Source of the DNA: a virus
Virus record (IMG/VR): IMGVR_UViG_3300032116_009412
Location: 1-24,136 of that record
Length of the DNA stretch: 24,136 bases
Direction: 5' to 3' (one strand)
The position numbers and the translations under genes were made by a program. Shown in pieces: positions 5,851 through 23,155 of the stretch (position 1 is its first letter; each line of letters opens with the position of its first letter). Under the pieces are notes generated by a model. The model had not been told where the DNA came from and searched no databases. It was given only the letters and a program-made list of their open reading frames with translations.

Positions 5851-6129
5851 TCACCACTTTCCTAACGGACATACTGAAGTTTGGAATGCTACCTTAACCT
5901 TCATAAAGCATCCACATTCTAAGCATCTATCGTTCTGTAGTCGTGGACATTCGTTGCAAATAGACCATCTGTTGTCTCTCACAAACTGTTCAACGAGAGT
6001 CTTGTTTCCTTCTACTGCGTTCTTGATAATTTTGGTACCGTCACGCATTAGATTCTTTGCCATTTCCATAGCACTTGGTAAGTCCTCTTTAGGGACACAA
6101 TCTTCTTGTGGACAAATTTCTTCTGACAT
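5851..6129 (-). CDS. Small cysteine-rich phage protein (probable zinc binding)
   Basis: A 92-residue protein of unknown function. The C-terminal half carries C58-x2-C61, C69-x2-C72-x-C74 and C87, ending CPLGKW. This matches a phage family with the pattern IC..C......C..CGCFM......CPLGKW that I have seen in T4-like marine phages without a known role. The N-terminal half is probably helical and lacks known motifs. I chose the ATG at 6129 over the in-frame GTG at 6135 because AGGAG sits five bases before the ATG and would abut the GTG. It is embedded in the glycan cluster but need not act on sugars. Confidence 0.75.
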   Translation of the reverse strand: MSEEICPQEDCVPKEDLPSAMEMAKNLMRDGTKIIKNAVEGNKTLVEQFVRDNRWSICNECPRLQNDRCLECGCFMKVKVAFQTSVCPLGKW

Positions 6130-6137
6130 ATTCACTC

Positions 6138-6539
6138 CTAGTCTACTGAGCCAAGTAAGATTTGACGAACCTGCGACATTCCACTCAGATTAAATGTACG
6201 ATATGAACGGCCCTTTACATACGGTGATGTTGAAAATGTTTTATAAGCTTCGTCTGTATTTAAATTCTCCACTACACTTGCCCGTCTGTCGTCATAGTCC
6301 ATATTAATACTTGTGCCGAACGAAGCGAAAAATTCAATCAATTGTGCATCGGTAAGTTCTTCAATTACAAATCCATGTAACTGTGGTTCTGTTGCCCGTT
6401 CACTTTTACGATTCGGGTCTATAACCAACACAGTATACGACCCAGCACCACCAGATTTTTTCTGATAGCTAAACTGAATCATCATACCAGACTTTACATT
6501 ACTTAGGCTAATAAATCGGCGTTCACTACGTAGAGGCAT
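6138..6539 (-). CDS. Conserved-looking phage protein of unknown function
   Basis: A 133-residue protein without a recognised enzymatic motif. It begins with a basic segment and then SLSNVKSGMMIQFSYQKK, followed by YTVLVIDPN and LHGFVIEELTD. This layout (a strand-rich opening, a VIDP turn, then LHGF) reminds me of small uncharacterised T4-like phage proteins. The end reads SPYVKGRSYRTFNLSGMSQVRQILL. The ATG overlaps the upstream glycosyltransferase stop as TAATG at 6537-6541. It is soluble and beta-rich by composition. A role in glycan synthesis is not supported by anything except position. Confidence 0.7.
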   Translation of the reverse strand: MPLRSERRFISLSNVKSGMMIQFSYQKKSGGAGSYTVLVIDPNRKSERATEPQLHGFVIEELTDAQLIEFFASFGTSINMDYDDRRASVVENLNTDEAYKTFSTSPYVKGRSYRTFNLSGMSQVRQILLGSVD

Positions 6540-7873
6540 TATTCAACCTTTTTAAGTTTAGGTAAATCAACCTTCTTTAAAGTAGGTAACTTAATAGGAA
6601 CCTGTTTTGGAAACTCTGGTACATACTTGTCAAGAAGTTCCCACGTTCTTTGTTGTATTGCATTATAGGAGAACTTCTTAAAATTCTCCTTACCCAGCTT
6701 TGCAGACCTCTTACGGAAGGTTTCATAATCCATAAATACACCAGCAAGTGCATTGGCTGCCTGTTGAATATCTGGTCGGAACCAGGAAGATTCCTTGATA
6801 AGAATATTATCCCAAACAGAACTTGGATGTATCTGTGCCAACTCACCACCGACCAATACAGCTTCTTCTGGGTTCAAGAAATCCATATGACCAGACCAAC
6901 CCGAGGCAATCACTGGCTTCCCACTAACCGATGCTTCAAGTAATGGCCGTCCAAACCCTTCACCCTTTGTAAACGAAACGTGTGCTTTAATCTTTGGGTG
7001 ATTATATAATGAATTCATTTCACTATCGGTCAACTCACCATGTAATACATAAATATTTGGCATGGTTTGACCTGCTTCCAATTGCACAGTATTACGAATA
7101 TCATTTATTTTCTTTAGAATTTCTCGTTTATCCAAGATGGAGAAATTGCCACCGCTGGTCTTTAGAATTAATGCTGGTGGAGAACTCTTTGTTTGCTTAA
7201 AGGTTTCAAGGAATATACGAACCAACAAACCAACATTCTTTCTATCTTCACCAAAGTCTCCACGCAACCAGTGACCAACAAAAAGATAGCAAAACTTCTC
7301 TGGAACTTCTGCTAATACCTCTTTGACCGTCTTTTGAACATCAGATTCGTATTCGAGCTTCTTAAAGATAGCTTGGTCAATGCAATTGTGTAATACTTCG
7401 ACTGGCTTCTCAAGCTTAAGGGTACCCAAATCTTCTCCGTTAGGGCCTCTACGACCAAACTGAGATGCTAAGAATACATTCTTTGAATGTTCTGAGATAG
7501 TGAAAACCGCATCCATTCTGTTACATGCATCGACCCATTGAGCAGATGCGATACTAGTTTCAATTCCAGCTGTAATACCAATATTATACTTTCCAATCGT
7601 TTCAAACTCTGATGGGATTGTGATAGTCACAAACAAATCTGGTTGTCTCGTAAGAGGACCAGTGAGTATTCGGTCCAATATCATCTTGTCTTTTGGATTG
7701 TTTTCATCCAAAGCGTTCATTGGAGTTTCACCCCAATTTACGGATACAACCTTAACATCAAACTTATCATATTCAATAATATGACGAATGATGTCACGGC
7801 TCATATCTCCATATCCAGAACGAGTAGCGCATGGTGCCCGAACAACACATAACGGTTTAGTTTCTATATTCAT
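6539..7873 (-). CDS. GT4-family glycosyltransferase (GT-B fold)
   Basis: A 444-residue group 1 glycosyltransferase. The N-domain opens with a hydrophobic strand and RSGYGDMSRDII, the G.G...... acceptor-side loop. The linker FTISEHSKNVF is typical. The C-domain has a strand ending FVGHWLRGDFGEDRKN, a likely donor-phosphate loop, and KGEGFGRPLLEASVSGKPVIAS, which contains a complete E-x7-E (E305, E313). The protein ends in a short basic tail with a repeated LPxLKKV unit (at about 429-443) outside the catalytic fold. It starts 3 bases after the gmd stop, so it may use the GDP-sugar made by Gmd; that pairing is inferred from position. Confidence 0.85.
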   Translation of the reverse strand: MNIETKPLCVVRAPCATRSGYGDMSRDIIRHIIEYDKFDVKVVSVNWGETPMNALDENNPKDKMILDRILTGPLTRQPDLFVTITIPSEFETIGKYNIGITAGIETSIASAQWVDACNRMDAVFTISEHSKNVFLASQFGRRGPNGEDLGTLKLEKPVEVLHNCIDQAIFKKLEYESDVQKTVKEVLAEVPEKFCYLFVGHWLRGDFGEDRKNVGLLVRIFLETFKQTKSSPPALILKTSGGNFSILDKREILKKINDIRNTVQLEAGQTMPNIYVLHGELTDSEMNSLYNHPKIKAHVSFTKGEGFGRPLLEASVSGKPVIASGWSGHMDFLNPEEAVLVGGELAQIHPSSVWDNILIKESSWFRPDIQQAANALAGVFMDYETFRKRSAKLGKENFKKFSYNAIQQRTWELLDKYVPEFPKQVPIKLPTLKKVDLPKLKKVE

Positions 7874-7876
7874 ATA

Positions 7877-8893
7877 TTATCCTTGTAACTTTGTAAAATC
7901 GTTGTGAACCATCTTTCCTACCCACTGCTCAAACGGCGTCTTCGGTGTCCAACCTAATACTTCCTTTGCCTTTGTTGCATCACCACGAAGAACCTCGACT
8001 TCCGCCGGACGGAAGAATTTGGGGTTGACCACTACATACTTTTCCCAATCCAAGATATTAACTTGATAAAATGCTGCTTGTAAGAAATGTTTAATAGTCT
8101 TAGTAACACCAGTTGCAATAACATAATCATCAGGTGTATCTTGTTGCATCATCAACCATGCGGCTTCTACATAATCAGGTGCATATCCCCAATCACGACC
8201 TGCATCAAGATTACCTAATTCAATTGTATCTTGGAATCCTAATGCAATACGAGCAACACCATCAGTAATCTTACGAGTAACAAACTCAATCCCACGGCGT
8301 TCACTTTCGTGATTGAATAAGATACCAGAGACATTGAACATTCCATAACTTTCACGATAGTTCTTAGTAATCCAGTGCCCGTACAGCTTCGCTACGCCAT
8401 ATGGGGAACGTGGATAGAATGGTGTGGATTCTTTTGATGGATTCTCCACCATACGACCAAACATTTCAGACGAAGATGCTTGGTAAAACTTAATAGGTTC
8501 CCCATATTCACGGATTGCTTCTAACATCCGAAGAACACCCAATCCAGTAATATCACTGGTTTGTTCTGGCGTGTTCCAACTCTCACCGACGAACGATTGT
8601 GCTGCGAAGTTATAGACTTCTGATGGATTTGCAGTTTTCAAACACCGAAGGAGTGAGTTCTGGTCAGCAAGGTCACCAATAATAAACTCAAAGTTTGGAT
8701 TATCAATAAGATGCTTTGTGTTCTCTCTATTCTTGACAGAGGCTCGTCGTTCCATTCCATAGACTTTATATCCTTTGTCAAGTAGGAAGTCAGCCATATA
8801 GGAACCATCTTGTCCGTTGATACCAGTAACTAGTGCGGTTTTCCTAGATTTTACAATTCCTAGTTGCATATCGACCTCGAATTCGTAGCTCAT
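7877..8893 (-). CDS. gmd: GDP-mannose 4,6-dehydratase
   Basis: This enzyme converts GDP-mannose to GDP-4-keto-6-deoxymannose, the precursor of GDP-fucose, GDP-rhamnose and GDP-perosamine. The 338-residue protein has the Rossmann signature ALVTGINGQDGSYMADF with G24, G27 and G30. YNFAAQSFVGESW is nearly identical to the family consensus. SSSEMFG (130-136) and Y155-x3-K159 form the catalytic site, and LFNHESERRG is a family-specific segment. The C-terminal FFRPAEVEVLRGD is also diagnostic. I place the start at 8893, where ATG overlaps the preceding stop as ATGA; an in-frame ATG at 8929 would reach into the upstream gene. No GDP-fucose synthase is obvious next to it, although the epimerase at 1029-2063 could act downstream. 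Confidence 0.95.
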   Translation of the reverse strand: MSYEFEVDMQLGIVKSRKTALVTGINGQDGSYMADFLLDKGYKVYGMERRASVKNRENTKHLIDNPNFEFIIGDLADQNSLLRCLKTANPSEVYNFAAQSFVGESWNTPEQTSDITGLGVLRMLEAIREYGEPIKFYQASSSEMFGRMVENPSKESTPFYPRSPYGVAKLYGHWITKNYRESYGMFNVSGILFNHESERRGIEFVTRKITDGVARIALGFQDTIELGNLDAGRDWGYAPDYVEAAWLMMQQDTPDDYVIATGVTKTIKHFLQAAFYQVNILDWEKYVVVNPKFFRPAEVEVLRGDATKAKEVLGWTPKTPFEQWVGKMVHNDFTKLQG

Positions 8894-10284
8894 GCTTTCT
8901 CCAATGTGAATCGCTTCCGTGGTGTCCAATCAGTAAGCCCCTTGTTGATGTGCTCAATGAAAGAGTTACACATATGTTCTGCTGTAAACTTACCGTGACC
9001 TAAAGCGTACTGACGACCAAGCTCTCCACGGAGCTTCCGTTCCTCACGGGACAATCCATACACTTCCATCATTCGGTCTGCTGCATCTTCAAATGACGCA
9101 CGGTCATCAAAGATGTATGGGGTCATTGGTGACCCTTGGATGGAACGATTGGTTGGGAACATTGGGAACGCCCAATTACCGTGCTTCTTATACTTACCAT
9201 CGTGATTACTACCCCAATCATATGTAAAGTGTACATCTGGGTCAAGATAATTGTAGTCATCATCCATAAATCCACATTGGTCTTGAAGACCGCCAGTGAC
9301 ATTGACGATGATTGGAGTGCCAGCGACCATACTTTCACAAGTACCTAATCCGAATCCTTCGTTACTGGACATATTAATAGTTACATCAGCGATGTTGTAG
9401 AGGTGATTTAAGAATCCAGCTTCAACACGGTCAGCAGAAAACACAATATACTTTTGTACTTCTGGTGTGACATCACGGATAACCGCTGGTAAATCTGTAC
9501 CGTTATCATCAACAGGTTGTGTGTGCATTACCAAACGAACCCGTTCACGCTGTTCTGGCGTTAACTTCATCATAAACACCTTGAAGGCGTAAATGATATC
9601 TGATGTTTGCTTACGACGAATATTCCGACTATTGTAGAAAATTACATAATCCACTTCGGCGTCACCAAATAGTTTCTTTCGAGTTTCAAGCATTGCTGCA
9701 TCATCTGCTGGAAGTGGGTGATATCGCTTAGTATTGATACCATGCGGAATGTATGCAAGATGCCGTGGGTTCTCTGGTCCAAGAACATGCTTGTTAATGT
9801 TATATGTTTGCTTACTGATAGAGAACAACGAGTCGCATGACATATAATATTCTTTATTATACATTGGGAATGGAAGGTCGTCCCAAATATTATAATAAAG
9901 AATTGGCATCTTCTGACGGAGTTCATGCTCCATCTGATATAACCAAATCCAATACCGTGGGTCGGTGAAATGGAGAATGGCATCTGGCTTTTCTATTTCA
10001 AGAAGTTGACGAATCAATCTGCTATCACCATATCCATTATACGGATAGATACGAACATACGAATCGTCTATACCTATTTCTTTATTTAATGCAGCAGAAA
10101 TATCAATTGTCTTCCCCATCTCTGGATGATTGACACCAGCTCCCACTTGCACCCAATTAAAATGATGTGCGGTTCCTTCAACGATTTCCCGTGACATAAC
10201 TCCGATACCAGAGGTCACTCGCATATCGTCTGAAAGAAGAAGAATCTTTTTACGTTGGTCCTTCGGAATATAACCAGTTCTCAT
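8890..10284 (-). CDS. GT4-family glycosyltransferase (GT-B fold)
   Basis: A 464-residue group 1 glycosyltransferase. ILLLSDDMRVTSGIGVMSRE (14-33) is the N-terminal strand and glycine loop, YIPHGINTKRYHP (178-190) is the interdomain hinge, and FYNSRNIRRKQ (216-226) supplies the Arg/Lys that bind donor phosphates. NEGFGLGTCESMVAGTPIIV holds a perfect E-x7-E (E309, E317). The start is placed at ATG 10284, eight bases after an AGGG in the end of the preceding small gene, giving MRTGYIP; the longer frame from 10314 would overlap that gene. It is translationally coupled to gmd, so a GDP-sugar donor is plausible but not proven. Confidence 0.85.
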   Translation of the reverse strand: MRTGYIPKDQRKKILLLSDDMRVTSGIGVMSREIVEGTAHHFNWVQVGAGVNHPEMGKTIDISAALNKEIGIDDSYVRIYPYNGYGDSRLIRQLLEIEKPDAILHFTDPRYWIWLYQMEHELRQKMPILYYNIWDDLPFPMYNKEYYMSCDSLFSISKQTYNINKHVLGPENPRHLAYIPHGINTKRYHPLPADDAAMLETRKKLFGDAEVDYVIFYNSRNIRRKQTSDIIYAFKVFMMKLTPEQRERVRLVMHTQPVDDNGTDLPAVIRDVTPEVQKYIVFSADRVEAGFLNHLYNIADVTINMSSNEGFGLGTCESMVAGTPIIVNVTGGLQDQCGFMDDDYNYLDPDVHFTYDWGSNHDGKYKKHGNWAFPMFPTNRSIQGSPMTPYIFDDRASFEDAADRMMEVYGLSREERKLRGELGRQYALGHGKFTAEHMCNSFIEHINKGLTDWTPRKRFTLEKA

Positions 10285-10288
10285 AATA

Positions 10289-10459
10289 TTAACCCTGTAA
10301 AGAAATACTACCACTCACACTAGAAGAAATATAATTAGACCACAGACGTTCTGTCAATGGTCCTGCATTTACGAAATTCGTTTTACAGAATTCACGTATA
10401 TGCTTATTTATTTCTTTACTAACTTGAATGGTAGTATATTTGTGTTTGTCTTTTCGCAT
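10289..10459 (-). CDS. Short protein resembling phage ribbon-helix-helix-type proteins
   Basis: A 56-residue gene filling what would otherwise be a gap. The ATG at 10459 is preceded by AAGGG at eight bases. It encodes a basic N-terminus, then KYTTIQVSKEINKHIREFC, a strand followed by a helix, then a helix around LTERLWSNYIS and a Ser-rich tail. A strand rich in Thr/Ile/Val that leads into two helices is the layout of small MetJ/Arc-type DNA-binding proteins, and many phages carry small proteins of this look. The stop is 4 bases before the next ATG. DNA binding is inference from layout only. Confidence 0.65.
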   Translation of the reverse strand: MRKDKHKYTTIQVSKEINKHIREFCKTNFVNAGPLTERLWSNYISSSVSGSISLQG

Positions 10460-12756: not shown

Positions 12757-13151
12757 ATCATAACCTCAAACATTTCATGCAGTGCGTCAACCTTCACCGA
12801 GGTATATTTCGCAAGTAGGACCAACTCTTTTGCCGCAAAGTTCTTATCGTGGTCATCGTATCCAATCGCATGAACCAACTCATGTACAAGAGTCAAGATG
12901 TCCCGTTGGGTTGGGGCAAGTTCCAATGTTTCCCCATCACACCAACTAAACTTCTGTAATCCCTTGCCAAATCGGATAAGAGGCATCTGCTTCTTAATCT
13001 TCTCAGCCTTCCAAATCTTCTTGGCATATCGTACCAGATAGTCTAATGACCGTTGCTTGGTGATATACGCAAACCTGCGGTCGTAGTACATATCAGTTTC
13101 CAATTGATAGACCCGACGAGTATCAATCATTTGCTTATATCGCTTCTTCAC
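12753..13151 (-). CDS. SprT-like zinc metallopeptidase domain protein
   Basis: A 132-residue protein with a complete zinc site: H90-E91-L92-V93-H94 inside TLVHELVHAIGYDDHDKNF, with H101 as the probable third ligand. The HExxHxxGxxxHDxxF pattern is that of SprT/Spartan and WLM-type minimal metallopeptidases, which in cells can clear DNA-protein crosslinks. The rest is a basic helical region. I place the start at GTG 13151, which overlaps the upstream stop as GTGA and has AAGGAG eight bases before it; a TTG at 13181 would reach further into the upstream gene. The substrate is unknown. The small size suggests one catalytic domain only. Confidence 0.78.
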   Translation of the reverse strand: MKKRYKQMIDTRRVYQLETDMYYDRRFAYITKQRSLDYLVRYAKKIWKAEKIKKQMPLIRFGKGLQKFSWCDGETLELAPTQRDILTLVHELVHAIGYDDHDKNFAAKELVLLAKYTSVKVDALHEMFEVMI

Positions 13152-13744
13152 AGATATATCTCCTTGATAAAGTCCCAACAAATAATGTTCATAGCGGCAC
13201 TCACATTATATGACCGAAGTACCCCACGTTGCGGAATACTGATACGCTCAAAGTTTGCGAATCGGATAACCTCTGGAATTCCGTGACTCTCTGAGCCGAA
13301 GATAAAGAGTGGGGTTTCATTGTGCTTGTGGAGACTATCGTAAAACTTCCAATTGTCCTTCCCCATCACATGACCACCATGCTCACACAACACTATATTG
13401 TGCTTCAACAACTTCAACTGATTCAGAATTGATTCGTCGGCGTGTATCGGGTCATCAAAAGTATATTGGACGATATTAATGTATTTCTCAGCCCCAACAG
13501 TGGACCGTTTATCAAATTTCTTTCGTCCAAAGATATAAAAATTCTCAGCCCCAAAAAGACACGCCGAACGAATCATCATTCCGATATTCAGTTCCCCCGT
13601 GATATTGATACATCCCACGGAGAATCTACGTTGCTCACTCATTGTGATGGCAACATTCTGTTCGTAGGTATTTTCCTTGTACTCATCCCGCACGTTATAA
13701 TGGTTACTTGCAGTTTCAGCAATCAGCTTACTATAGTTGACCAT
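13148..13744 (-). CDS. SpoU/TrmH-type RNA 2'-O-methyltransferase
   Basis: A 198-residue SPOUT-fold methyltransferase. All three knot-region motifs are present: N53-I-G-x3-R59 (NIGMMIRSACLFGAENFYI), FIFGSESHGIPE (147-158) and ISIPQRGVLRSYNVSAAMNI (168-187). These form the SAM pocket and dimer interface of enzymes that methylate ribose 2'-OH in tRNA or rRNA. The length matches a catalytic domain with a short N-terminal extension. The ATG at 13744 was chosen because longer frames run back through the nuclease gene; a GTG four codons upstream is also possible. The target RNA is unknown. It is uncommon in phages of this type. Confidence 0.87.
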   Translation of the reverse strand: MVNYSKLIAETASNHYNVRDEYKENTYEQNVAITMSEQRRFSVGCINITGELNIGMMIRSACLFGAENFYIFGRKKFDKRSTVGAEKYINIVQYTFDDPIHADESILNQLKLLKHNIVLCEHGGHVMGKDNWKFYDSLHKHNETPLFIFGSESHGIPEVIRFANFERISIPQRGVLRSYNVSAAMNIICWDFIKEIYL

Positions 13745-13757
13745 AGGATTTTCCACA

Positions 13758-14627
13758 TTACACCCCGTACTGGCAAAGGTCTTTACGCTCACGGAATACA
13801 CAATACTTACAGGCGCTCTTACTTGCCTTATGCTTAATCGTATTGGTCTTATACTGACCATCTTCATCGAAACAATCGAACAAGAAATTCTCGAAGTCGG
13901 TCCATGCCCGATTGATTGACGGCTTCCCATGCGGGGGCTCGAACGGACTGACACGCGGAATCGGATATGGAGAATTCTCAGAGATGATACGCTTGAGAAT
14001 CACATACTCGACACGAACCGACTCTAGCGGCACATTGAAATGCTCAGCAATAAACTTCTTGTACAGAAGCAATTGGCTAATCTTAGTCTTGTCAGACTTC
14101 TGTGATTGTGTCCACCCAGCTCGACTGGTCTTTAAATCGTAAATGGTAATCAATCCCGTCTTTTCATTCTTTGTGATGATGTCCACGAACCCCACATACT
14201 TGACGTTCTTCCGCACCTCTACATCAATCGGGAACTCAATACCGACTAATGACACATTCTGGTTCGGGAAGAGCTTCTTCTGATTCGCCTGAACATACGA
14301 AAGAATCTCTGTACCTTGATGGTAGAATTCTTCGAGCGTCTTACGGTCTGACGGGAATACCTTTACCCCGTCCACTTCCTTGATTCCAGCCTTGAAGTGT
14401 TCGTGAAACTTTGCCTTCAAGCTGTCATCAAGGTCAATACCGTTGGCAAATGATTCACTCTTATTGAAAAGAGTATCAAGCCATTCTTGGATGACTTCGT
14501 GCATGGCGGTACCGAAGATGGTGTGGATTGAACCCTCATCCAGCTTGTGACCATCCACATAACGGAGCTTCCATGCTTGCGGGCAGTTAGCCCACGTTGT
14601 ATACTGACTGTACGAAACTTTGTTCAT
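13758..14627 (-). CDS. RecB-like PD-(D/E)XK nuclease, possible Fe-S type
   Basis: A 289-residue nuclease of the RecB/Cas4/AddB-like group. SYSQYTTWANCPQAWKLRY (5-23) is the family opening with C15. GTAMHE (39-44) gives H43, GFVDII carries D149, and IYDLKTS carries D164-x-K166, the catalytic D...DxK core; Q185-L-x2-Y in SQLLLYKKF completes it. The C-terminus has C273-x2-C276-x8-C285. With C15 this gives four cysteines placed as in Fe-S-containing Cas4/AddB nucleases. It should act on DNA ends, in recombination or host-DNA degradation. It is the first gene after the promoter at 14657-14685. Confidence 0.88.
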   Translation of the reverse strand: MNKVSYSQYTTWANCPQAWKLRYVDGHKLDEGSIHTIFGTAMHEVIQEWLDTLFNKSESFANGIDLDDSLKAKFHEHFKAGIKEVDGVKVFPSDRKTLEEFYHQGTEILSYVQANQKKLFPNQNVSLVGIEFPIDVEVRKNVKYVGFVDIITKNEKTGLITIYDLKTSRAGWTQSQKSDKTKISQLLLYKKFIAEHFNVPLESVRVEYVILKRIISENSPYPIPRVSPFEPPHGKPSINRAWTDFENFLFDCFDEDGQYKTNTIKHKASKSACKYCVFRERKDLCQYGV

Positions 14628-15254: not shown

Positions 15255-15474
15255 CGTGAACCTCGTATGATGAGGTGTTAGGTAATCCGCTATACTCACA
15301 GTTATCTACAATATCACGTAGTCTGTTAATTTCTCTTTGAACTTCTTGTAAGGACTCCGATATACGGGCTTGTGCTTTTTGCGGCGTGTTACCAAAAGTT
15401 TGTTCCCAATTATTTTTATATGTTTCTGTATCCACACTCAATGGGCGTGGGGTATCACCTTTTCCATTTGTCAT
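15241..15474 (-). CDS. Small phage protein with MTNGKGDTPRPL start
   Basis: A 77-residue protein. It begins MTNGKGDTPRPLSVD followed by a Tyr/Trp-containing segment (YKNNWEQTFG); small phage proteins starting with NGKGD.PRP are widespread and of unknown function. The second half is a likely helix (ISESLQEVQREINRLRDI). The ATG at 15474 overlaps the upstream IscA-like stop as ATGA, which is why I reject the nine-residue-longer frame from 15501. Confidence 0.7.
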   Translation of the reverse strand: MTNGKGDTPRPLSVDTETYKNNWEQTFGNTPQKAQARISESLQEVQREINRLRDIVDNCEYSGLPNTSSYEVHGESL

Positions 15475-15803
15475 ACTGCAAAACTCGTACCACATCCACA
15501 ACCACCAGACGCGTTAGGGTTATTAAATCTAAATCCAGATTCCATCATATTAGATATGTAATCCACAACAACATTATTTAAATATGGTACGGAAAACGGG
15601 TCAACGACTGCCTTTACTCCGTTATGTTGTTCTACGATTACATCATCTTCTTCTGGATTATCAATTATCTCAAAGTTATATTTGAAACCAGAGCAACCGC
15701 CTGGCATCACAGAAATACGGAAATAGTCGGTTGCTTCCTTTTCGGCAAAAGACTTCATTTCCACTAAAGCACTTTCTGAAAATGTTATTGTAAAATTATC
15801 CAT
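15471..15803 (-). CDS. A-type Fe-S cluster carrier (IscA/ErpA/HesB-like)
   Basis: A 110-residue, full-length A-type carrier, the family that delivers Fe-S clusters to apo-proteins. The three conserved cysteines are present: C37 in MPGGCSGFKY, and C102 and C104 in GGCGCGTSF. The strand pattern FTITFSESALVEMKSF at the start is typical. Nothing suggests degradation, so it is probably functional. It lies between dCMP deaminase (8-base overlap) and a small protein (ATGA overlap). Phage copies are known as auxiliary metabolic genes in some marine phages. Client proteins are unknown, though this window has a nuclease with an Fe-S-like cysteine set. Confidence 0.93.
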   Translation of the reverse strand: MDNFTITFSESALVEMKSFAEKEATDYFRISVMPGGCSGFKYNFEIIDNPEEDDVIVEQHNGVKAVVDPFSVPYLNNVVVDYISNMMESGFRFNNPNASGGCGCGTSFAV

Positions 15804-16308
15804 TTCTCAATTCCCCAATATCAATAAATGGTTTCTGTTCCCCATAATACCACACAGTGCGATGTGCCTCTTTTAACATCTGAATACTACGTTCTCTGTG
15901 TCCATCCCAATGTTCACCACTTGCACCCTGGTCACGCTCACAAAAGATAACCTTGATACCAGAGTTGATAATCGCGCGTGTGCAATCCACACACGGAATA
16001 TCACAAGTCAAGAATAAAGTGCATCGGTCAGTAGAAACACCAATACGAGCGGCGTTGATAATGGCGTTCCGTTCCGCATGCTCCATCCAATAATACTTCT
16101 CTGGACGTTCCTGCCGTTCTTCACGGAAATCTTCAATCCCACGTGGAAATGAATTGTATCCCGTGGAACGAATTTCATTATTAGAGCCGACAATGACCGC
16201 ACCAATCTGTGTGGTCTTGTCCTTTGACTTTAATTTCACAGTGTGCGCAATCTTTCGGAAATATTCCGACCAACTCAACTTAACCATAGTAACCAAATCC
16301 TGTGTCAT
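15796..16308 (-). CDS. cd: Deoxycytidylate (dCMP) deaminase
   Basis: A 170-residue zinc deaminase that makes dUMP from dCMP, feeding dTMP synthesis. The catalytic H77-A-E79 lies in MEHAERNAI, and the second zinc site is P105-C106-V-D-C109. SWSEYFRKIAHTVKLKSKD and TQIGAVIVGSNNEI match the dCMP-deaminase N-terminus, and the insertion around PRGIEDFREER is typical of the phage enzymes. Its ATG overlaps the clamp-loader small subunit stop as ATGA. Phages with this enzyme often also have thymidylate or hydroxymethylation enzymes; none is in this window. Confidence 0.92.
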   Translation of the reverse strand: MTQDLVTMVKLSWSEYFRKIAHTVKLKSKDKTTQIGAVIVGSNNEIRSTGYNSFPRGIEDFREERQERPEKYYWMEHAERNAIINAARIGVSTDRCTLFLTCDIPCVDCTRAIINSGIKVIFCERDQGASGEHWDGHRERSIQMLKEAHRTVWYYGEQKPFIDIGELRNG

Positions 16309-16736
16309 AGTTTTGCCTTCTTCAATACTTTAGTATCAATCCCGTATTTTTCACAGAGTTCCCGAAGTGCGGGTTTATCTTGTTCGTAATAGATTTCCAA
16401 ATAGGTGACCGCTTCAATCTCGGATACACAATAATGCTTCGCAACCAAGGTCACCAACCACTCTTCATACTTGGTTTCTTTTGCAGCCTTCACATATTTG
16501 TTATATTGCTTACCGCGAGGAATCGTGGTCGCAAAGAATAAATAGTGAACATCGGAAGGTAGCGTGTACTTTTGTATCTCATTGACCAGCGGGAGCTGAT
16601 GAATGTTCATAGAAAGAAAGCGATTGACCATATAGTTACTATAGGTTCGCTTCTCCCCATCATCCAATCCAGAGAAATAGTTCTTCTTCTGGTCAAGATA
16701 AATTGCATTAATATGGTCAAATAGTGTCTTCGCCAT
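16305..16736 (-). CDS. 62: Clamp-loader small subunit, gp62-like
   Basis: A 143-residue helical protein matching the T4 gp62 type, the non-ATPase subunit that completes the gp44 loader ring. It opens AKTLFDHINAIYLDQKK and has YSNYMVNRFLSMN, which correspond to the FD.IN.I...K and VNR.LS segments of gp62 proteins. It is shorter than T4 gp62 (187 aa). I chose the ATG at 16736 because GGAGG is six bases before it, over the ATG two codons upstream. It overlaps the Mom-like gene by 20 bases. Position beside gp44 and gp45 homologues supports the call. Confidence 0.8.
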   Translation of the reverse strand: MAKTLFDHINAIYLDQKKNYFSGLDDGEKRTYSNYMVNRFLSMNIHQLPLVNEIQKYTLPSDVHYLFFATTIPRGKQYNKYVKAAKETKYEEWLVTLVAKHYCVSEIEAVTYLEIYYEQDKPALRELCEKYGIDTKVLKKAKL

Positions 16737-17562
16737 CTTCATCCTCCGTCATTACAATCTGTTTGTTTGACCACCCATTGTCAACCCCTTGGAGGATTTC
16801 AATGCGGTCCACTACCCCATCCTTTACGTGTACCTTCTGAATCAGTTGGGTATATGGCTTGATTTCATTATATGGAAATACGGGAATCTTCAAATTGTTC
16901 ATCATTCGTTTCCGTTCCTTCTTTCCACAGAGGAAATAGATATATCGATGTTTTGCTGTTTCCTCTTTTCTGTAGAAGGTCTGGCCGATTGTCTTAGCCA
17001 GATTCTCTACAGACTTATTTCCCCAACGAGCGCCTACGGTACGGCTATGCGTCCAGAGGTCATCTTCATTAATACGAATACTATAATCTGGCATCAACTT
17101 GGAATATCCACATCCTTGATAGAGCCAATTCGTTGCCCGATAGATTCCACCCGTATGTGCTTGTTCAGGGTCTGCATAACTGACCAAGACTTTTACCTTG
17201 GGGTCATTCTTCTTCATCCAATCAAAGGACTGAGCAATTACAAAACTTTCCAGATTCTTTCCATATCCATCCAAGCAGACTAATCTGGTCAACTCCAATA
17301 CTTCATCCAGCTCCAGCCCTTCGGTAATCGAATCTACCGTGCGATTACTTACTGGATGGCCATAGGTCATACATCCAATTAAACGTTCGTTCTCTCCAGC
17401 AAAGAACGCATGCTCACCATCCTCTACATAGAATACCCCAAGGGCATATCGTGTAGAGCTGAACTTATGCGTGTAATGGTGGGTTTCAATAAAATCCCGT
17501 GCCACATTCTTTGAGATTTCTCGGACGGTGACACGGGACTTATCTACGAACGTAGTTTCCAT
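16717..17562 (-). CDS. mom: Mom-family DNA adenine-modification protein
   Basis: A 281-residue protein with the GNAT-like core of phage Mu Mom, which converts adenine in phage DNA to N6-(methylcarbamoyl)adenine and so blocks many restriction enzymes. Family-type segments occur in order: THHYTHKFSSTRYALGVF (27-44), LIGCMTYGHPVSN (61-73), ELTRLVC (90-96), KNLESFVIAQSF (102-113), and LVSYADPE followed by GGIYRATNWLYQG (138-150). The C-terminal third has HRYIYFLCGKKERKRM, shared by phage Mom relatives, then an extra region. Its ATG overlaps the zinc-ribbon stop as TAATG. Mu's Mom activator Com is not recognisable next door, although the zinc-ribbon gene is adjacent. Confidence 0.78.
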   Translation of the reverse strand: METTFVDKSRVTVREISKNVARDFIETHHYTHKFSSTRYALGVFYVEDGEHAFFAGENERLIGCMTYGHPVSNRTVDSITEGLELDEVLELTRLVCLDGYGKNLESFVIAQSFDWMKKNDPKVKVLVSYADPEQAHTGGIYRATNWLYQGCGYSKLMPDYSIRINEDDLWTHSRTVGARWGNKSVENLAKTIGQTFYRKEETAKHRYIYFLCGKKERKRMMNNLKIPVFPYNEIKPYTQLIQKVHVKDGVVDRIEILQGVDNGWSNKQIVMTEDEDGEDTI

Positions 17563-17903
17563 TAATCCTCTAATACAAGCTTCGGCCGAGTGGGCTCCTC
17601 TGCAGTTTCTACACTGGTTCTAGTTTGTGTAGTTTCCTCATCGGTTCTAGCAGACTTTACTGGACGGAACATTTGGTTTACATATCCACACGCCACACAA
17701 GCGAATGTCGGGATAGGAATGATACCTTCCTTTCCATTTGGTGACGCAATCGCAGAAATCTTCTTCATCAACATAACTTCTTGGAAGGTGAGATTCCCAC
17801 AGTTTTCACAGACGATATCCGTAGCCAATGAAAGGTCGGGCATCTGCTGTTGCATCTGGCGTGGGTCTGGCTTGCCCGAAGGCGGAATAAACTTACTGGT
17901 CAT
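17562..17903 (-). CDS. Zinc-ribbon phage protein
   Basis: A 113-residue protein. A Pro/Gln-rich N-terminus (MQQQMPDLSLA) is followed by C32-x2-C35 (IVCENCGN) and C69-x2-C72 (ACVACGY) spaced 33 residues apart, a zinc ribbon. The C-terminus is acidic and Thr-rich (TRTSVETAEEPT). Similar small proteins occur in T4-like marine phages, without a known function. It sits between the clamp-loader ATPase and the Mom-like gene. Mu's Com is also a small zinc-finger protein, but the resemblance is only at that level. Confidence 0.75.
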   Translation of the reverse strand: MTSKFIPPSGKPDPRQMQQQMPDLSLATDIVCENCGNLTFQEVMLMKKISAIASPNGKEGIIPIPTFACVACGYVNQMFRPVKSARTDEETTQTRTSVETAEEPTRPKLVLED

Positions 17904-17912
17904 AATTTCCTC

Positions 17913-18824
17913 TTACATTAAAATGTTATACATTGTTGCTATAAAATTAATTTCTTTATCTACTACAAAAGCATCCCGATACTGACCTTCAGCGATATGG
18001 ATAATCGTCTGGGGAATCTTGTTCGGGGCATAATCTTGAACCTTATCATAGAGTAACCGATAAAGTTCGGTAAAGTCACGGATACCAGCGTCAGCAACTA
18101 TTTGACGAATTTCTTGAACCTTATTAGTCGAAGGTTGATTGCTGGTCAAAGTATCCATAATCTTCAGCTTACTGTCACCAGCGATTACTTCGTTGACATT
18201 GACAGTCAACTTTCCATCACGGGTTTGCTGCTGAGCGGTTCCGATGACACGACGAATATCTGGATAATACGCATTGACTAACGTGGCGATTGCCTGCTTC
18301 TCAAAGGTTACACCCTCTTGATTTAAGATGTTCGTGAGATGGATAGCCACTTCCTTCTTCGATGGTGGGGTCAACGCAGAAGTCTGACACCGACTGACGA
18401 TAGGTGGAATAATACGTTCAAAGTAATTACAAGTCAAGATGAATCTGGTCTTTTGACTAAATACTTCCATCATATTGCGAAGAGCGGCTTGTGCGTCAGG
18501 AGTCAACGCATCTGCCTCGTCCAGTACCACCACCTTCAACGGAGCAAATCCAGAGGTGGAGGCAAAGTTCTTAATCTTCTCACGAATGACATCAATACCA
18601 CGTTCATCTGATGCATTGATGAATAGGTGGTCACAGTCAATATTCTTTACGAGAATCTTTGCTGCGGTTGTCTTACCCGTACCTGCCGTTCCATAGAACA
18701 GCAGATGCGGGATATCTTGCGTTTCAATATAATGGGCGAACTTTTCTTTAAGAGTTTCGTTTCCAATATAATTGTCCAAGATAGACGGACGATACTTTTC
18801 TACCCAAATGGTGTGATTACTCAT
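17913..18824 (-). CDS. 44: Clamp-loader ATPase subunit, gp44-like
   Basis: A 303-residue AAA+ protein of the RFC small-subunit/gp44 type, which opens the sliding clamp with ATP. It begins with IWVEKYRPSILDNYIGN, the RFC box. Walker A is GTAGTGKT (45-52), Walker B VVVLDEAD (98-105), sensor 1 around N133 (LTCNYFERI), and the arginine-finger SRC motif is at 144-146. T4 gp44 is 319 residues, so the length fits. Its start overlaps the end of the upstream GIY-YIG/ParB gene by 8 bases. Confidence 0.95.
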   Translation of the reverse strand: MSNHTIWVEKYRPSILDNYIGNETLKEKFAHYIETQDIPHLLFYGTAGTGKTTAAKILVKNIDCDHLFINASDERGIDVIREKIKNFASTSGFAPLKVVVLDEADALTPDAQAALRNMMEVFSQKTRFILTCNYFERIIPPIVSRCQTSALTPPSKKEVAIHLTNILNQEGVTFEKQAIATLVNAYYPDIRRVIGTAQQQTRDGKLTVNVNEVIAGDSKLKIMDTLTSNQPSTNKVQEIRQIVADAGIRDFTELYRLLYDKVQDYAPNKIPQTIIHIAEGQYRDAFVVDKEINFIATMYNILM

Positions 18825-20136
18825 TGTTTAAAAACGGGTTGTGGGTCATAGTCGTAGGCATCTCATGTATTCTAACGCTGTATCCAAGTCTTGTATAAAA
18901 CCAACTAATCATATTTAGTATACGTGGTTGCTCATTCATTTTCCAGTTCAGCTCCTTATCAGAATCGGTATGGTACACCACAACTACCATTTTGTCCTTC
19001 TGCGTCACTCGACCTTTTTTGGTTTCTTCTGTGTGGGCGAACATCGTATTTACAACGTTGTCAAACTTAAACATCGCAGAACTTACATGAATCGCCATAG
19101 TATCTGCCGTTCTAAAACCTTCGGTAGTACTTTCTAAAGTCTTTTTATGTATCGGTTTAGTGTAATCTATCCAAAGTTTGTTAGCTTTGAGGAACTCTTG
19201 ATTCTTAATGCTCTTTTTAACTCTACCAATAATCTTTGTTATCTGCTTACCAGTAAATCCACAAATCTGTAAATACTGTCTGTGCGCATCTTCATCTTTT
19301 GCGAACTGCTCCAAAGTAACCCCTTTACTAACAATATCTTCAAGGTGCTTTACAGCGTCATCAGGACTGACGGGCTTCTTAATAGTATCCGGCTTCTTAT
19401 TCAAAAGATTACCGATAGCCTTCAACTCAGCGTCGGTATACTCTTTATGTACACTCTTAGGAATACGAATGACAGGAATTACAGTACAATGCTTTGCTTC
19501 ACTCGCAGCCATAACTGTGTGGTTACCATCACCAATGAGATCCTCTCCATTAGGTCCACGACCTTCGTATATCACCACAGGAGAACATCCAGAAGTATCA
19601 CCGCCGGCGTCTTCAATGCGTTCCTTGATTTCCCTCTTGTGAGCTTCATCTTCAGCTAACCGAACCTGTACACGTTTTAGTACCGCAATCTCTTCAACTG
19701 GTTCTATGGTAACTGTCAATCCATCTCTAGACTGAATCTTATCAACTAGGATTTGCATCATTTCTACATCGGGCGGTGCATCTTGATGTAATTTCATACC
19801 GTTTGTTAAGTTATAGTACATAGGATTATTTTTGGCATCCACCGCATGTAACATCCTACTTTCTGCAACTTCCATAGCGTGATGGCTGCCGAACCGAAGA
19901 ACTTCAAACTTAAACACATTTTTCTCGGTAGAAAGTGCTTGATTAAATTCTTCGTTCTTTGACGAATGCCAGTACCTGTCTCCAAGTCTACCCTTGTGAA
20001 TACCTATGTACATTTTTCCCGTTTCTAGATGGGTATATCTATAAAGATAAGACTCATACTGAGCAGGAGCGTTCCCCAGATGGATTTCATTTTCGTTGAA
20101 AGACGCCGGGAACTTCGCAAAATTAAGTAGATTCAT
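18817..20136 (-). CDS. GIY-YIG plus ParB-like domain fusion protein
   Basis: A 439-residue protein with two recognisable parts. Residues 28-112 look like a GIY-YIG endonuclease: YLYRYTHLETGKMYIGIHKG (30-49) for the signature strands, R54-Y55-W56-H57, and E89/E92 in the helix followed by YYNLTNG. Residues about 141-226 look like a ParB/sulfiredoxin-type domain, with a nucleotide-binding-like loop LIGDGNHTVMAASEA (200-214). The last 200 residues are helical and basic with no known motif. Homing GIY-YIG enzymes occur in T4 phages, but fusion to a ParB-like domain is unusual. It lies between the glycosyltransferase and gp44. Confidence 0.7.
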   Translation of the reverse strand: MNLLNFAKFPASFNENEIHLGNAPAQYESYLYRYTHLETGKMYIGIHKGRLGDRYWHSSKNEEFNQALSTEKNVFKFEVLRFGSHHAMEVAESRMLHAVDAKNNPMYYNLTNGMKLHQDAPPDVEMMQILVDKIQSRDGLTVTIEPVEEIAVLKRVQVRLAEDEAHKREIKERIEDAGGDTSGCSPVVIYEGRGPNGEDLIGDGNHTVMAASEAKHCTVIPVIRIPKSVHKEYTDAELKAIGNLLNKKPDTIKKPVSPDDAVKHLEDIVSKGVTLEQFAKDEDAHRQYLQICGFTGKQITKIIGRVKKSIKNQEFLKANKLWIDYTKPIHKKTLESTTEGFRTADTMAIHVSSAMFKFDNVVNTMFAHTEETKKGRVTQKDKMVVVVYHTDSDKELNWKMNEQPRILNMISWFYTRLGYSVRIHEMPTTMTHNPFLNNE

Positions 20137-20142
20137 TTTCTC

Positions 20143-21252
20143 CTACCGTGTTAGTTGATTGTTTAATTGTTTAATCATCTTAGCTTCATTTAACTGTAAT
20201 TCCTTGGTTCTAGCTATACTTCTTACACCTTGTTCGTGTCTAAAGTTTTCATCATCAAAGAATTTATCTAGAGTCGCAAATAAATCCCTTTTAAACTTGA
20301 AGAACATTCCGTTGGGGTCAATTTCGTGATAACAATCAGACTCTTGGAAAATGACGGCAGTACCATTCATCATGCAATCCGTAGCTGCCACGCTCCAACC
20401 ATAGTTTGACTGGCGCATTTGGATTCCTACGGAGCAACGTTGAAGTCTGGTATAGTACTCATGCTTCGGGACTTTTGTATTGTCAATCCATGATTCTTCA
20501 GGCTTTCCGTCCAGCTGAGGAACCCATACCACAAAGTCTTGTCTGGATTCACGATACTCTTTCATCAGCTCAATAAATTGTGGATATCCTTTATATGCAG
20601 CGGCTCGATGATTGAATACAATAATCTTTTCCTTTTCGGTCGGTTCTGAAATAATCTTTCCTTGTGGAACACCCAAATGCCAGACTTGAAGAATTTTATC
20701 TAATTCTTGAACCTTTTCGTCACTAAACCATTGACGTGCCTCGTCTAATACACGATTCTTTTGGTCTTGGGTGTTGAGATAACAGACCTTCATCCCCAAT
20801 ACACCCAACAATTCTGCCACAATGTTTCGTTGACGATTCTTTCTATCTTCAGCGTTACACGATTTCATTTCCCACCAATGTGCGTATCCAATAATATCCT
20901 TATCGGTATATCGCTTGACCATAAACCAATCGGGTAAATGCGAATACACTACATCGTATTCCAAATCTTGTAAGAGATTAATAGCCTTTCTAGGAAAGGT
21001 TACCCGCATATGAATCATATCACCAGAAATATCTACGATGTGTTGCTTGACATTTTCAAGATTAAGTTTAGCAACTGGCTCTGGAACCAAAATATGCCAA
21101 TAATAATCTCCAAGCTTTTCTAATGCTCGAATGTGATTGTAGATGACATCCACAAAGGAGTCTTTTTCAATATTCGCAGAATTAGTGATATTAGGTATCA
21201 CCAATACTTTTCTACACTTTGATATGTCAACGGTTGTTTCAAAGAAGCTCAT
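20143..21252 (-). CDS. Degenerate GT-B glycosyltransferase
   Basis: A 369-residue protein with the two-domain GT-B layout. An N-domain (RKVLVIPNIT, then YDVVYSHLPDWF) is followed by the hinge WHLGVPQGKI (191-200) and IVFNHRAAAYKGY (211-223), with R216 and K221 positioned to bind donor phosphates. The usual E-x7-E is altered: the segment NYGWSVAATDCMMNGTAVIF has D292 for the second Glu and Tyr or Asn for the first. Unlike the other glycosyltransferases in the window it sits among replication genes. It overlaps the DruA-like stop as ATGA. DNA-base glycosylation is possible but unproven. Confidence 0.75.
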   Translation of the reverse strand: MSFFETTVDISKCRKVLVIPNITNSANIEKDSFVDVIYNHIRALEKLGDYYWHILVPEPVAKLNLENVKQHIVDISGDMIHMRVTFPRKAINLLQDLEYDVVYSHLPDWFMVKRYTDKDIIGYAHWWEMKSCNAEDRKNRQRNIVAELLGVLGMKVCYLNTQDQKNRVLDEARQWFSDEKVQELDKILQVWHLGVPQGKIISEPTEKEKIIVFNHRAAAYKGYPQFIELMKEYRESRQDFVVWVPQLDGKPEESWIDNTKVPKHEYYTRLQRCSVGIQMRQSNYGWSVAATDCMMNGTAVIFQESDCYHEIDPNGMFFKFKRDLFATLDKFFDDENFRHEQGVRSIARTKELQLNEAKMIKQLNNQLTR

Positions 21253-22430
21253 CGCCCGACCTCTGGAAGATATATACGCTTTGCCTCATCCCAACTAATT
21301 CCAATCATATTGGTGTAATACAGAATACCATCCTTTGTCCGACCCTCTTCATGCAACTTCTCATATCGGGCAATAGCCTTCGGCTTCCACCAGTTCAATA
21401 CAGAATCTACATCATCCTTCAGCTTTGTCAAGGGAACGAGCTTATCCTTCTCAATCTCCCCACGGAGGAACTCACGGGTATTCTCGTAAAGGGGAGCGTA
21501 ATATACACCACGCTCAAATCCGTGCTTGTACTTACTCGCACTGACTCCCACTTCACGGAAAATCATAGAAATGATTTGCTGTTTAATACCAGTGACCGGC
21601 CCCTTCGATGGGTCATCCTTGACGAATCGTTCCTTGTATTCATCTGGCTTGTTCTGCTTCAGATAGTCATGCCACTTGCCATAGACATCATCATCGGGCT
21701 TGATACCAATCGCACCAGTACTCGAACCCAACTTCTTCCAGAACGGAATAGAATTGTACATAGATTCCGACCCATATAGTGAAGTGGTGGTCAGTCCAGC
21801 CAACACATTGTTATACATCTTTTCCCACGTATCAGACACAACCTTTGTGGTCAACATAGACGCAACCAGCTTCCCACCCAAGAAGTTGTATCCGAACGGC
21901 TGGGTAGCCATAATACACGTACCGATAGCGGAATTATTCAACTTCCCCTTTAGCTTTGTATCCTTATCCCAACCAATCCACTGGTCACGGCATCCGATAG
22001 CGATTACATCACTACCCAACGAAGTTGCACCCAGATACTTCCCCGTCACCTCATCATAGACAAGGAACCGAACGAATCGGCCGGGGTTCTGGTCGAACTC
22101 CATCGTATGTGAGAATACCCGAATCATATTCCAATCCATCTCGTCGGTAGTCTTTGGCATGACCACACGAATACGAGGCTGGAGGGCTTGGATTTCCTTG
22201 ACTGTCTGTTCCTTATTGTTAAGATCAGTAGGCGTCCAAATTTTCGCCTTCACGATGCGAGCCTTATCAAACGAATTCTGATAATACCCATTTACTTCCT
22301 TATACTTCTTGTACAAGGTTTGCTCTTGAACGGACATACTCTTAAGCATGTCCAAGTTTTCGACAAAGAGTTGTTTCTCCTTGTCGAAATCAAACTTGGG
22401 TGCATCAAAGAAATCGTCGAAGCCGGCCAT
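21249..22430 (-). CDS. DruA/DUF4338-like protein
   Basis: A 393-residue protein whose central part resembles DUF4338, the domain of DruA from the Druantia anti-phage system. Matching segments are FLVYDEVTGKYLG (122-134), GCRDQWIGWD (146-155; the family has RD..IGW), a Pro-containing segment then GGKLVASML (185-193), W202-x3-Y206, and MYNSIPFWKKLGSSTG (224-239), equivalent to the family's Y.A.NW..LG.T.G. The first 90 residues are charged and helical and the last 120 are separate. The family's biochemical activity is not established. The stop of the clamp gene overlaps its ATG as TAATG. Confidence 0.65.
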   Translation of the reverse strand: MAGFDDFFDAPKFDFDKEKQLFVENLDMLKSMSVQEQTLYKKYKEVNGYYQNSFDKARIVKAKIWTPTDLNNKEQTVKEIQALQPRIRVVMPKTTDEMDWNMIRVFSHTMEFDQNPGRFVRFLVYDEVTGKYLGATSLGSDVIAIGCRDQWIGWDKDTKLKGKLNNSAIGTCIMATQPFGYNFLGGKLVASMLTTKVVSDTWEKMYNNVLAGLTTTSLYGSESMYNSIPFWKKLGSSTGAIGIKPDDDVYGKWHDYLKQNKPDEYKERFVKDDPSKGPVTGIKQQIISMIFREVGVSASKYKHGFERGVYYAPLYENTREFLRGEIEKDKLVPLTKLKDDVDSVLNWWKPKAIARYEKLHEEGRTKDGILYYTNMIGISWDEAKRIYLPEVGR

Positions 22431-23155
22431 TAATCCTTCGTGTTAATCTGAACGAGGTAGTACTTCGAGGTGAATCCCTCACCTGCGAACTCAGCCACAG
22501 CGATGCCCTTCGAACTAACCTTCAATACTCCATCCTTGATTTCCTTATTTGAAAGAAGGATTTCCTTCAAGTAGTCAGCGGAAAAGCTCGTCGGTTCAAT
22601 CTTAGTATTTGTCTTGGTTGTCGTCTTAATATTAACACGATTCGTGTTGGATGTAGAATAACCAATTACCACAGTCGCATCAGTGCCGTCACTCATCACG
22701 GTGAATGTGCTCACCTCAGACAGAGCGCCTTTAGCACGGGCGAATGTGTTAACAAACTTCTCATCAAGAACGATTTCGATATCGGTGGGAGGAAGCTTCT
22801 TCAAATCGGGAACTTTTGGGATGACCGATTCATCTGCAAGAACAAATGTAACCTTCGTATCAGAATCGGAAAGATTCATTCCGACAACCTTGCCAGACAC
22901 ATTGTTGGCAGCGACCTTGAGCTTCTCCCCAAGTACACCAAGAAGTGAACGAAGCTTCTTTGTTTCATAGATACTGAACTCACCTTGGGGAAATCCGATA
23001 TCGTGACCAGTAACTTCGGCAAGTACATTCTTATCGTCAGAAACCGCACGAACTGTCATCTCTGTACCATTCGATACATACTTTACGCTCTCACATGCTC
23101 CACCGATGTTATACTTCGAAATGAACTTTTCCAACTTTGACTTTTCCATAACCAT
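22430..23155 (-). CDS. 45: DNA polymerase sliding clamp, gp45-like
   Basis: A 241-residue protein of the PCNA-like clamp fold, near T4 gp45 (228 aa). It alternates two-fold repeated beta-rich modules: EKSKLEKFISKYN at the start, GEFSIYETKKLRSLLGVLG (78-96) at the end of the first domain pattern, and FSADYLKEILLSNKEIKDG near the end, with KYYLVQIN closing. The clamp-loader ATPase and small subunit lie downstream in the same direction, as in T4. An AGAGG lies four bases before the ATG at 23155; an ATG two codons later is an alternative. Confidence 0.86.
   Translation of the reverse strand: MVMEKSKLEKFISKYNIGGACESVKYVSNGTEMTVRAVSDDKNVLAEVTGHDIGFPQGEFSIYETKKLRSLLGVLGEKLKVAANNVSGKVVGMNLSDSDTKVTFVLADESVIPKVPDLKKLPPTDIEIVLDEKFVNTFARAKGALSEVSTFTVMSDGTDATVVIGYSTSNTNRVNIKTTTKTNTKIEPTSFSADYLKEILLSNKEIKDGVLKVSSKGIAVAEFAGEGFTSKYYLVQINTKD

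Follow-up and report, generated by a model that had tools for sequence, protein, structure and literature searches.

The window analysed here is the whole of a 24.1-kb virus record (IMG/VR record IMGVR_UViG_3300032116_009412; 24,136 nt), and our subject is a block of eight genes within it, all on the minus strand, that runs from a sliding clamp gene at position 23155 down to the gene for clamp-loader subunit gp62 at 16305. The order is clamp, DruA-like protein, glycosyltransferase (GT), fusion of a GIY-YIG nuclease with a ParB-type CTPase, clamp-loader ATPase gp44, zinc-ribbon protein, Mom-family DNA modification enzyme and gp62, after which comes a dCMP deaminase. Successive junctions from clamp to deaminase measure -1, -4, +6, -8, +9, -1, -26 and -4 nt, and since all of them fall between -26 and +9 nt, translation is probably coupled across the block. 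A scan for promoters and terminators gave no signal (23 promoter-like sites against 24.7 expected, and seven terminator-like sites against 6.6). An earlier note on this DNA had proposed that genes 45, 44 and 62, which we take to be adjacent in T4, are split here by five genes forming a DNA-modification module, and all eight open reading frames (ORFs) of that layout are indeed in place on the minus strand.

The replication genes were assigned from profiles. The clamp (22430–23155, 241 aa), when searched alone, gave no Pfam match over the cut-off and no PHROG match, while a profile built from 14 clamp relatives (alignment A6) matched the RB69/T4 gp45 structures 1b77 (E = 1.2e-17) and 1czd (2.8e-15). 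The gp44 gene (17913–18824) matches phrog_168 at 3.3e-84, and gp62 (16305–16742) matches PF16790 at 1.4e-13 and phrog_225 at 3.8e-23.

Between gp44 and gp62 lies the mom gene (16717–17562, 281 aa), whose product matches PF25680 with 158.7 bits against a curated cut-off of 27.1 (E = 2e-46), and the family profile finds the structure of Mu Mom (8bv8, 4.9e-27). Others have established that adenine receives a methylcarbamoyl-type group from Mu Mom. In an alignment that includes Mom from the Mu genome, Mu residues S124, D149, H58, E108 and R111 correspond to S106, D131, H29, E90 and R93 of the window protein and are invariant in 20 of 20 rows; S124A is the inactive mutant according to the title of structure 8bv8, and the other four are counted with it as catalytic-site residues of Mu Mom. 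The conservation of these residues makes it probable that the window Mom is active. Further mom genes were seen in relatives: a second, shorter Mom paralogue (~33–35% identity) is found upstream of the g118-clamp pair at 3453–4052 of locus L009 and also in L005, L015 and L017, a position which in the window falls at or past the end of the fragment, and tandem mom genes with overlapping ends precede the GT and DNA polymerase genes in L079 (three, 1455–3691) and L076 (two, 2196–3726).

The DruA-like protein (21249–22430, 393 aa) matches PF14236 (E = 1.3e-34; 120.1 bits, cut-off 27) and PADLOC DruA1 (1.8e-26), and phrog_19197 is common to it (2.9e-31) and to cyanophage proteins (1.2e-191 for that of S-SCSM2R). 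Its AF2 (AlphaFold2) model, made from 31 rows, has a pLDDT of 89.7 and a pTM of 0.86, and VIA-align placed Mu Mom (8bv8) first among structures matching it (Z 9.9, 180 aligned residues, 3.9 Å), level with other GNATs. As modelled, the protein has a GNAT fold, and we predict it to be a nucleobase acyltransferase. One GenBank record labels a DruA-like gene 'methylcarbamoylase mom'. DUF4338 has previously been named a GNAT domain (PMC10853773), and DruA-like proteins have been reported in six Synechococcus phages (PMC12774648).

The GT (20143–21252, 369 aa) appears to be a divergent enzyme of the GT-B type, with matches to Glycos_transf_1 (7.7e-4) and Glyco_transf_4 (1.4e-3) that both fall below the cut-off. 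It had been called degenerate in the earlier note, a description that we correct: 29 columns are invariant across the 23 rows of its alignment, which indicates divergence instead of decay. Kinship with TAGT or AGT was considered and rejected, as neither Pfam, nor a profile search of the PDB, nor tblastn against phage records gave a match; the tblastn search, at 1e-5 in 50,697 phage records, found nothing, and all relatives found are IMG/VR contigs. A by-eye likeness of the C-terminal tail of long GTs to a winged helix was not used, since Pfam found nothing convincing in eight such tails.

The fourth gene (18817–20136, 439 aa) is the one read earlier as a GIY-YIG/ParB fusion, and this reading holds. 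Residues 29–113 match the homing endonuclease family phrog_314 (5e-10). In a structural model (pLDDT 77.8, pTM 0.52) the catalytic domain of I-TevI is matched by residues 27–113 (Z 7.8, 83 aligned residues, 2.6 Å; a score under 8 that is soft when taken alone) and ParB CTPase domains by residues 139–250 (6sdk; Z 9.8, 96 aligned residues, 2.6 Å), and the final third of the protein has no assignment. No Foldseek row reached E<=0.001, with ParB and sulfiredoxin chains leading the list (best E 0.011). Y43, G45, E92 and N109 are invariant in the nine rows of alignment A4, and there is no arginine among its invariant columns, the expected position of the catalytic arginine being one that we take from I-TevI. 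Pfam SegE_GIY-YIG scores 16 bits on the window protein, below its cut-off, and the GIY-YIG domain matches PD-T4-3/CMoRE weakly (Z 5.3).

To see how these genes are arranged in relatives, gene maps were made with a simple ORF picker and families were labelled with hidden Markov models (HMMs) built from the loci themselves. The first sample was retrieved with Mom, DruA and GT and comprised 265 loci (counting the window together with L001, which is the window's own locus, and leaving out L112–L118, which are named records and genome-search loci), falling into 142 groups at 95% nucleotide identity; the groups are related, so the counts given here are not independent events. We took the best 80 of 121 relatives for DruA, the best 80 of at least 570 for GT, the best 80 of at least 588 for the Mom profile and, for a separate sample, the best 80 of at least 600 for gp44; all 32 relatives from a first Mom scan were kept. 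Among 84 groups with clamp and gp44 within eight genes of each other, 38 have a DruA-like gene in the clamp-gp44 gap, 27 have mom there, 19 lack both and none has the two together. The linkage recurs with four different retrieval anchors (Mom, DruA, GT and gp44) and thus exceeds chance.

Since the first loci had been chosen by Mom, DruA or GT, the gap was also surveyed in the sample retrieved with gp44 only, where 80 relatives gave 73 groups, 60 of them with a visible clamp-gp44 gap. Genes of DNA-modification type occupy 31 of these 60 gaps: DruA-like in 11, mom in nine, a DNA methyltransferase in eight, a GT in two (both of the window GT family by our own HMM) and TAGT in one (L356, 6.5e-33). 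Four of the methyltransferases match N6_N4_Mtase (1.4e-39 in L309, 3.5e-7 in L312, 7.9e-7 in L328 and 4.4e-6 in L360) and, of the other four, L330 and L332 fall below the cut-off, L320 is called by PADLOC/PHROG and L321 by our own HMM only. In none of 68 groups of this sample was DruA or Mom found in the gap between gp44 and gp62, and we saw such a placement only in relatives of the window (Mom, 13 groups) and in cyanophages (DruA-like). When both samples are placed on one gp44 tree (142 rows), in which gp44-sample loci were not dereplicated and methyltransferases were labelled in the gp44 sample only, the content of the clamp-gp44 gap changes at least 20 times, compared with a shuffle mean of 71.5, and so is inherited yet has been exchanged many times. 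The placing of modification genes at 45/44/62 in the earlier note is supported beyond the lineage of the window, with DruA, Mom, GT and the nuclease repeatedly found together.

Named phages carry the arrangement as well. Of 15 named records viewed (drawn from 31 that match, with duplicates among them), 12 place a DruA-like gene between gp44 and gp62, among them those of the cultured Synechococcus phages S-SM2, S-SSM7 and S-T4; in S-B68 and in two Pelagibacter phages the gene is located elsewhere.

The zinc-ribbon gene (17562–17903) behaves differently from its neighbours. Where gp44 and gp62 lie near each other (78 groups), the gap between them holds Mom plus zinc ribbon in 13, zinc ribbon alone in 51 and neither in 14, with some of the last group missed by the ORF picker (tblastn finds the zinc ribbon in L065 and L079). 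The zinc ribbon is thus present at this place in 64 of the 78 groups, and because it is found there without Mom in 51, it belongs to the clamp-loader operon and not to the modification module, in which the earlier note had counted it. The same 51 groups led us to reject it as a Com-like partner of Mom, an idea based on the overlap of com with mom in Mu. Other genes seen between gp44 and gp62 are a GroEL-like gene (by eye) at 3403–5007 of L339 and an unrelated run of genes at 3817–7770 of L332.

A second kind of exchange is seen next to the GT. In 30 of 64 GT groups the GT has a slot nuclease as its immediate neighbour; by a slightly different count, slot nuclease families occur in 37 groups and touch the GT in 31, a ratio that is biased by the definition of these families next to the GT, so that its Fisher value of 5e-11 is not a probability. 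The 31 are of GIY-YIG/ParB type (14), GmrSD+HNH type (eight), family f342 (four), GHKL+Mrr type (two) and families f202, f200 and f216 (one each). Pfam finds GmrSD_N (7e-10) with HNH (2e-9) in the slot protein of L015, GmrSD_N just under the cut-off in L132 and L155 and no GmrSD_N in L182. For L039 and L172 it reports a GHKL ATPase and, weakly, a nuclease of Mrr/HSDR type. It finds nothing relevant in the GIY-YIG/ParB relatives of L079, L087, L146 and L166 or in the GHKL-family member of L055, calls which rest on similarity to the window protein and to the L039 protein, respectively. Families f342, f202, f200 and f216 are nuclease calls from motifs by eye to which Pfam lent no support, and PDB searches with f216, f200 and f342 proteins gave nothing of note; f163 and f389 had no match in Pfam or PHROGs (f163 none in PADLOC either), and f258 had spurious Pfam matches only. 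At the GT's nuclease position in four further loci there are genes for proteins of 590–657 aa in separate clusters (L076 3791–5563, L065 3250–5040, L073 2057–4030 and L080 3780–5609); scans of those from L076, L065 and L080 gave no convincing family match, and all four are candidate new nuclease types.

Turnover at this position can be followed within the window's own lineage, where L015, with a DruA 98% identical and a GT 94% identical, has GmrSD+HNH replacing GIY-YIG/ParB, and L039 has GHKL+Mrr. On the GT tree the kind of nuclease changes 16 times in 31 rows, against a shuffle mean of 15.3, and so carries no signal; the DruA position changes just three times across 73 labelled rows. The GIY-YIG/ParB gene, counted earlier as a member of the module, does adjoin the GT, and is better described as one occupant of a nuclease position with fast turnover.

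Could the gaps of the replication operon simply be permissive sites for free-standing, homing-endonuclease-like genes, so that the clustering reflects no system? The GIY-YIG domain does match homing endonucleases (phrog_314, I-TevI), dUTPase-like genes (by eye) also enter the clamp-gp44 gap (16 of 60), and in L062, L063, L093 and L013 gp44 itself is split by an insert of ~1.3 kb with an ORF of ~290–314 aa that looks like an intein or an intron/homing gene. Against such a cargo hotspot stand the modification-type genes in 31 of 60 gaps and the GmrSD-type and GHKL+Mrr-type proteins in the slot, which are restriction architectures and not usual homing endonucleases, and the GT-nuclease neighbourhood is kept outside 45-44-62 as well (for example in L040, L046, L051 and L110). 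We consider this explanation unlikely.

A different objection concerns the role of the nuclease. Mom, the DruA-like protein and the GT may do nothing other than protect phage DNA, with the nuclease serving host genome breakdown or recombination: Mu Mom guards against restriction (PMC6483171), as glucosylation shields T-even DNA from host restriction (PMC2993671), Mom occurs in multiple copies without a slot nuclease (in tandem in L192 and flanking gp44-gp62 on both sides in many of L224–L261), and in 20 GT groups DruA or Mom lies immediately upstream while the positions examined show no slot nuclease. We find pure anti-restriction doubtful, as the nuclease adjoins the GT in most slot-family groups (the 31 of 37 mentioned above, with their bias) and its kind, unlike that of a housekeeping gene, ignores the GT tree. 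Because the occupant turns over so fast, attack seems as fitting a purpose for the cassette as protection, and the swapping of restriction-type nucleases next to modification genes that stay the same suggests that the nuclease attacks DNA lacking the phage's mark, or the modified DNA of rivals.

It must also be asked whether the GT, and perhaps the DruA-like protein, acts on a cell-surface sugar or a protein, leaving Mom alone to modify DNA. The window holds a sugar cluster on the same strand (215–10314) with several glycosyltransferases, one of them matching GT4-conflict PF20706, together with an NDP-sugar epimerase, a GDP-mannose 4,6-dehydratase (1e-127) and an FkbM methyltransferase, and a DUF4338-GNAT domain fused to DndF has been suggested to have a protein target (PMC10853773). 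Against this, within six genes of the GT, in 64 GT groups, we find DruA in 56, PolB in 47, clamp in 46 and Mom in 38. Moreover, TAGT, a family of DNA-sugar transferases, sits between DruA and GT in L055 (PF20691, 1e-18; phrog_842, beta-glucosyl-HMC-alpha-glucosyltransferase, 5e-27), and a member of the same cluster is in the cassette of L109. A PLOD-type GT (3e-36) is placed likewise between DruA and GT in L071, with a same-cluster member in L093. In T6-like phages the TAGT family likely adds a second glucose to cytosine (PMC13390438). A target other than DNA therefore appears decidedly unlikely to us. That the DruA-like protein and the GT act on DNA is indicated by three features: a position equivalent to that of Mom and DNA methyltransferases, the GNAT fold, and TAGT as a neighbour.

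The reading that we favour, and regard as fairly probable, is that the block is a clamp/clamp-loader operon with a built-in DNA-hypermodification cassette and an exchangeable nuclease. In this scheme Mom, by analogy with Mu Mom, would add a methylcarbamoyl-type group to adenine, the DruA-like protein, also of GNAT fold, would acylate bases as a second such enzyme, and the GT, by prediction, would attach a sugar to DNA; co-translation with clamp and loader might allow modification to keep up with replication, and the exchangeable nuclease next to the GT (here GIY-YIG/ParB) would cut DNA without the phage's pattern, such as that of the host, or with a rival phage's. The identities of the genes, their recurrence and their exchange are observations; substrates, self-protection and co-regulation we infer. 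A wider proposal, which we put forward tentatively as possible and no firmer, is that of a modular self/non-self system in the replisome operon of T4-like phages, consisting of an exchangeable base marker (Mom, DruA-like GNAT, methyltransferase or DNA glycosyltransferase) and an exchangeable GT-linked nuclease, with the DruA-like protein as a new DNA-base acyltransferase: the marker made with the clamp would mark nascent DNA and the nuclease would destroy unmarked or rival-marked DNA.

Several results weigh against the favoured reading of a built-in cassette, in addition to the sugar cluster and the DndF fusion already mentioned. The structures following Mu Mom in the VIA list for the DruA-like model are other GNATs with Z up to 9.2, a gap of less than 1 that amounts to a tie; Foldseek gave no match at E<=0.001 (though most of the 50 rows shown were GNATs), and hhalign of DruA-like against Mom profiles was not significant, so that a special kinship between DruA-like and Mom is unproven. 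The window GT has no Pfam match to the known DNA GTs (AGT, BGT, TAGT), and its profile (alignment A5) found no PDB match under E 0.05; a TET/JBP search bearing on its acceptor matched none of 20 records, but the control genomes were silent as well, so that this speaks neither way, and thymidylate-synthase-type genes are present in just 2 of 16 records. In the gp44 sample 29 of 60 gaps are without a modification gene, 13 of them being empty or holding tiny ORFs and the rest the 16 with dUTPase-like genes. When a 'no nuclease' state is added to the GT tree, 22 changes are counted in 51 rows against a shuffle mean of 27.1, with one of 300 shuffles as low; it is thus the presence of a nuclease, and not its kind, that follows the GT tree. 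LR756508 and Mel-JY01, the phage records whose gp44 matches best, lack both DruA and Mom at this place, and the best named match to Mom, in Polaribacter phage P12002L (42%), is flanked by a DNA methylase gene and NinG-type genes, and the 12.7 kb viewed there carries no annotated clamp. Finally, the earlier note had set co-occurrence of the module genes against solitary carriage at unrelated loci, and here the outcome is divided: the DruA/GT/nuclease cassette stays together even outside 45-44-62 (for example in L040, L041, L046, L051, L055 and L110), but DruA is without the other key genes on the locus in 15 groups, many of them on short contigs, and Mom is alone in several (for example L018, L021, L022 and L027, with short contigs among them).

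Beyond gp62 lies the dCMP deaminase gene (15796–16308; PF00383, 4.2e-19), a neighbour with a role in nucleotide supply that overlaps gp62 by 4 nt, followed by a gene for an IscA-type Fe-S protein (15471–15803; PF01521, 7e-19). Further along, ORFs for a SpoU/TrmH-type methylase and a PD-(D/E)XK nuclease (13148–13954 and 13758–14627) overlap by ~200 nt in different frames, and the start of the methylase was possibly called too early.

If the proposed system is real, the DruA of Druantia would gain a nucleic-acid-modifying role, and the role of this defence protein, for which we met no enzymatic assay, would become directly testable. A single gap in a core replication operon would then tell which phages carry marked DNA and what chemistry they use, and could lead to base modifications and nucleases that are new. 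As the Synechococcus carriers S-SM2, S-SSM7 and S-T4 are cultured, their DNA is open to examination now. In the accessible part of the open-licence PMC literature we found no description of a Mom/DruA slot at 45-44-62, of Mom, DruA-like and further modifiers replacing one another at a single gap, or of an exchangeable nuclease beside a GT; the parts are known already, and it is their combination and siting that we did not find in print there.

Comparison with known systems shows where the cassette is familiar and where it departs. With the com-mom operon of phage Mu it shares a Mom-family protein with the Mu catalytic-site residues and a small zinc-protein gene overlapping the start of mom; in contrast to Mu, mom here is part of a T4-like replisome operon, and the zinc ribbon has no Com-family match and, as described above, persists without Mom in most groups. 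The DruA-like protein belongs to the same Pfam/PADLOC family as the DruA of Druantia (DUF4338). However, judged by the size and partner set of Druantia, no Druantia partner lies beside it (its flanks in the window are clamp and GT, the window has no complete ORF longer than 474 aa, and its neighbours generally are the clamp and GT or gp44), and the gap that it occupies is used in other phages by Mom and methyltransferases.

The T-even phages glucosylate hydroxymethylcytosine (hmC) through alpha-gt, beta-gt and TAGT and possess the self/non-self nucleases denA and denB. Here, too, DNA marking would be combined with nucleases in a T4-like phage, and TAGT appears in the cassettes of L055 and L109; yet Mom is central here, the GT is of a different family, TET/JBP gave no match (with silent controls) and thymidylate-synthase-type genes are few. 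A closer parallel to the nuclease position is offered by type IV restriction. GmrSD cleaves modified DNA, and GmrSD_N+HNH holds the nuclease position in L015. CMoRE (PD-T4-3), a 5hmC-directed GIY-YIG enzyme described as cleaving modified DNA, is weakly matched by the GIY-YIG domain of the window protein. Unlike these systems, the present genes are encoded by a phage, and a ParB-type CTPase replaces the sensor domain of CMoRE. Lastly, jumbo phages encode Mom-REase fusions for which attack and protection have both been proposed (PMC7824862), and these resemble our cassette in linking Mom-type modification to a nuclease thought to act on host or rival DNA; by comparison with that report, the genes here are separate, several unrelated nuclease architectures have been exchanged beside the GT, a DruA-like protein and the GT are added, and the whole is placed at 45-44-62.

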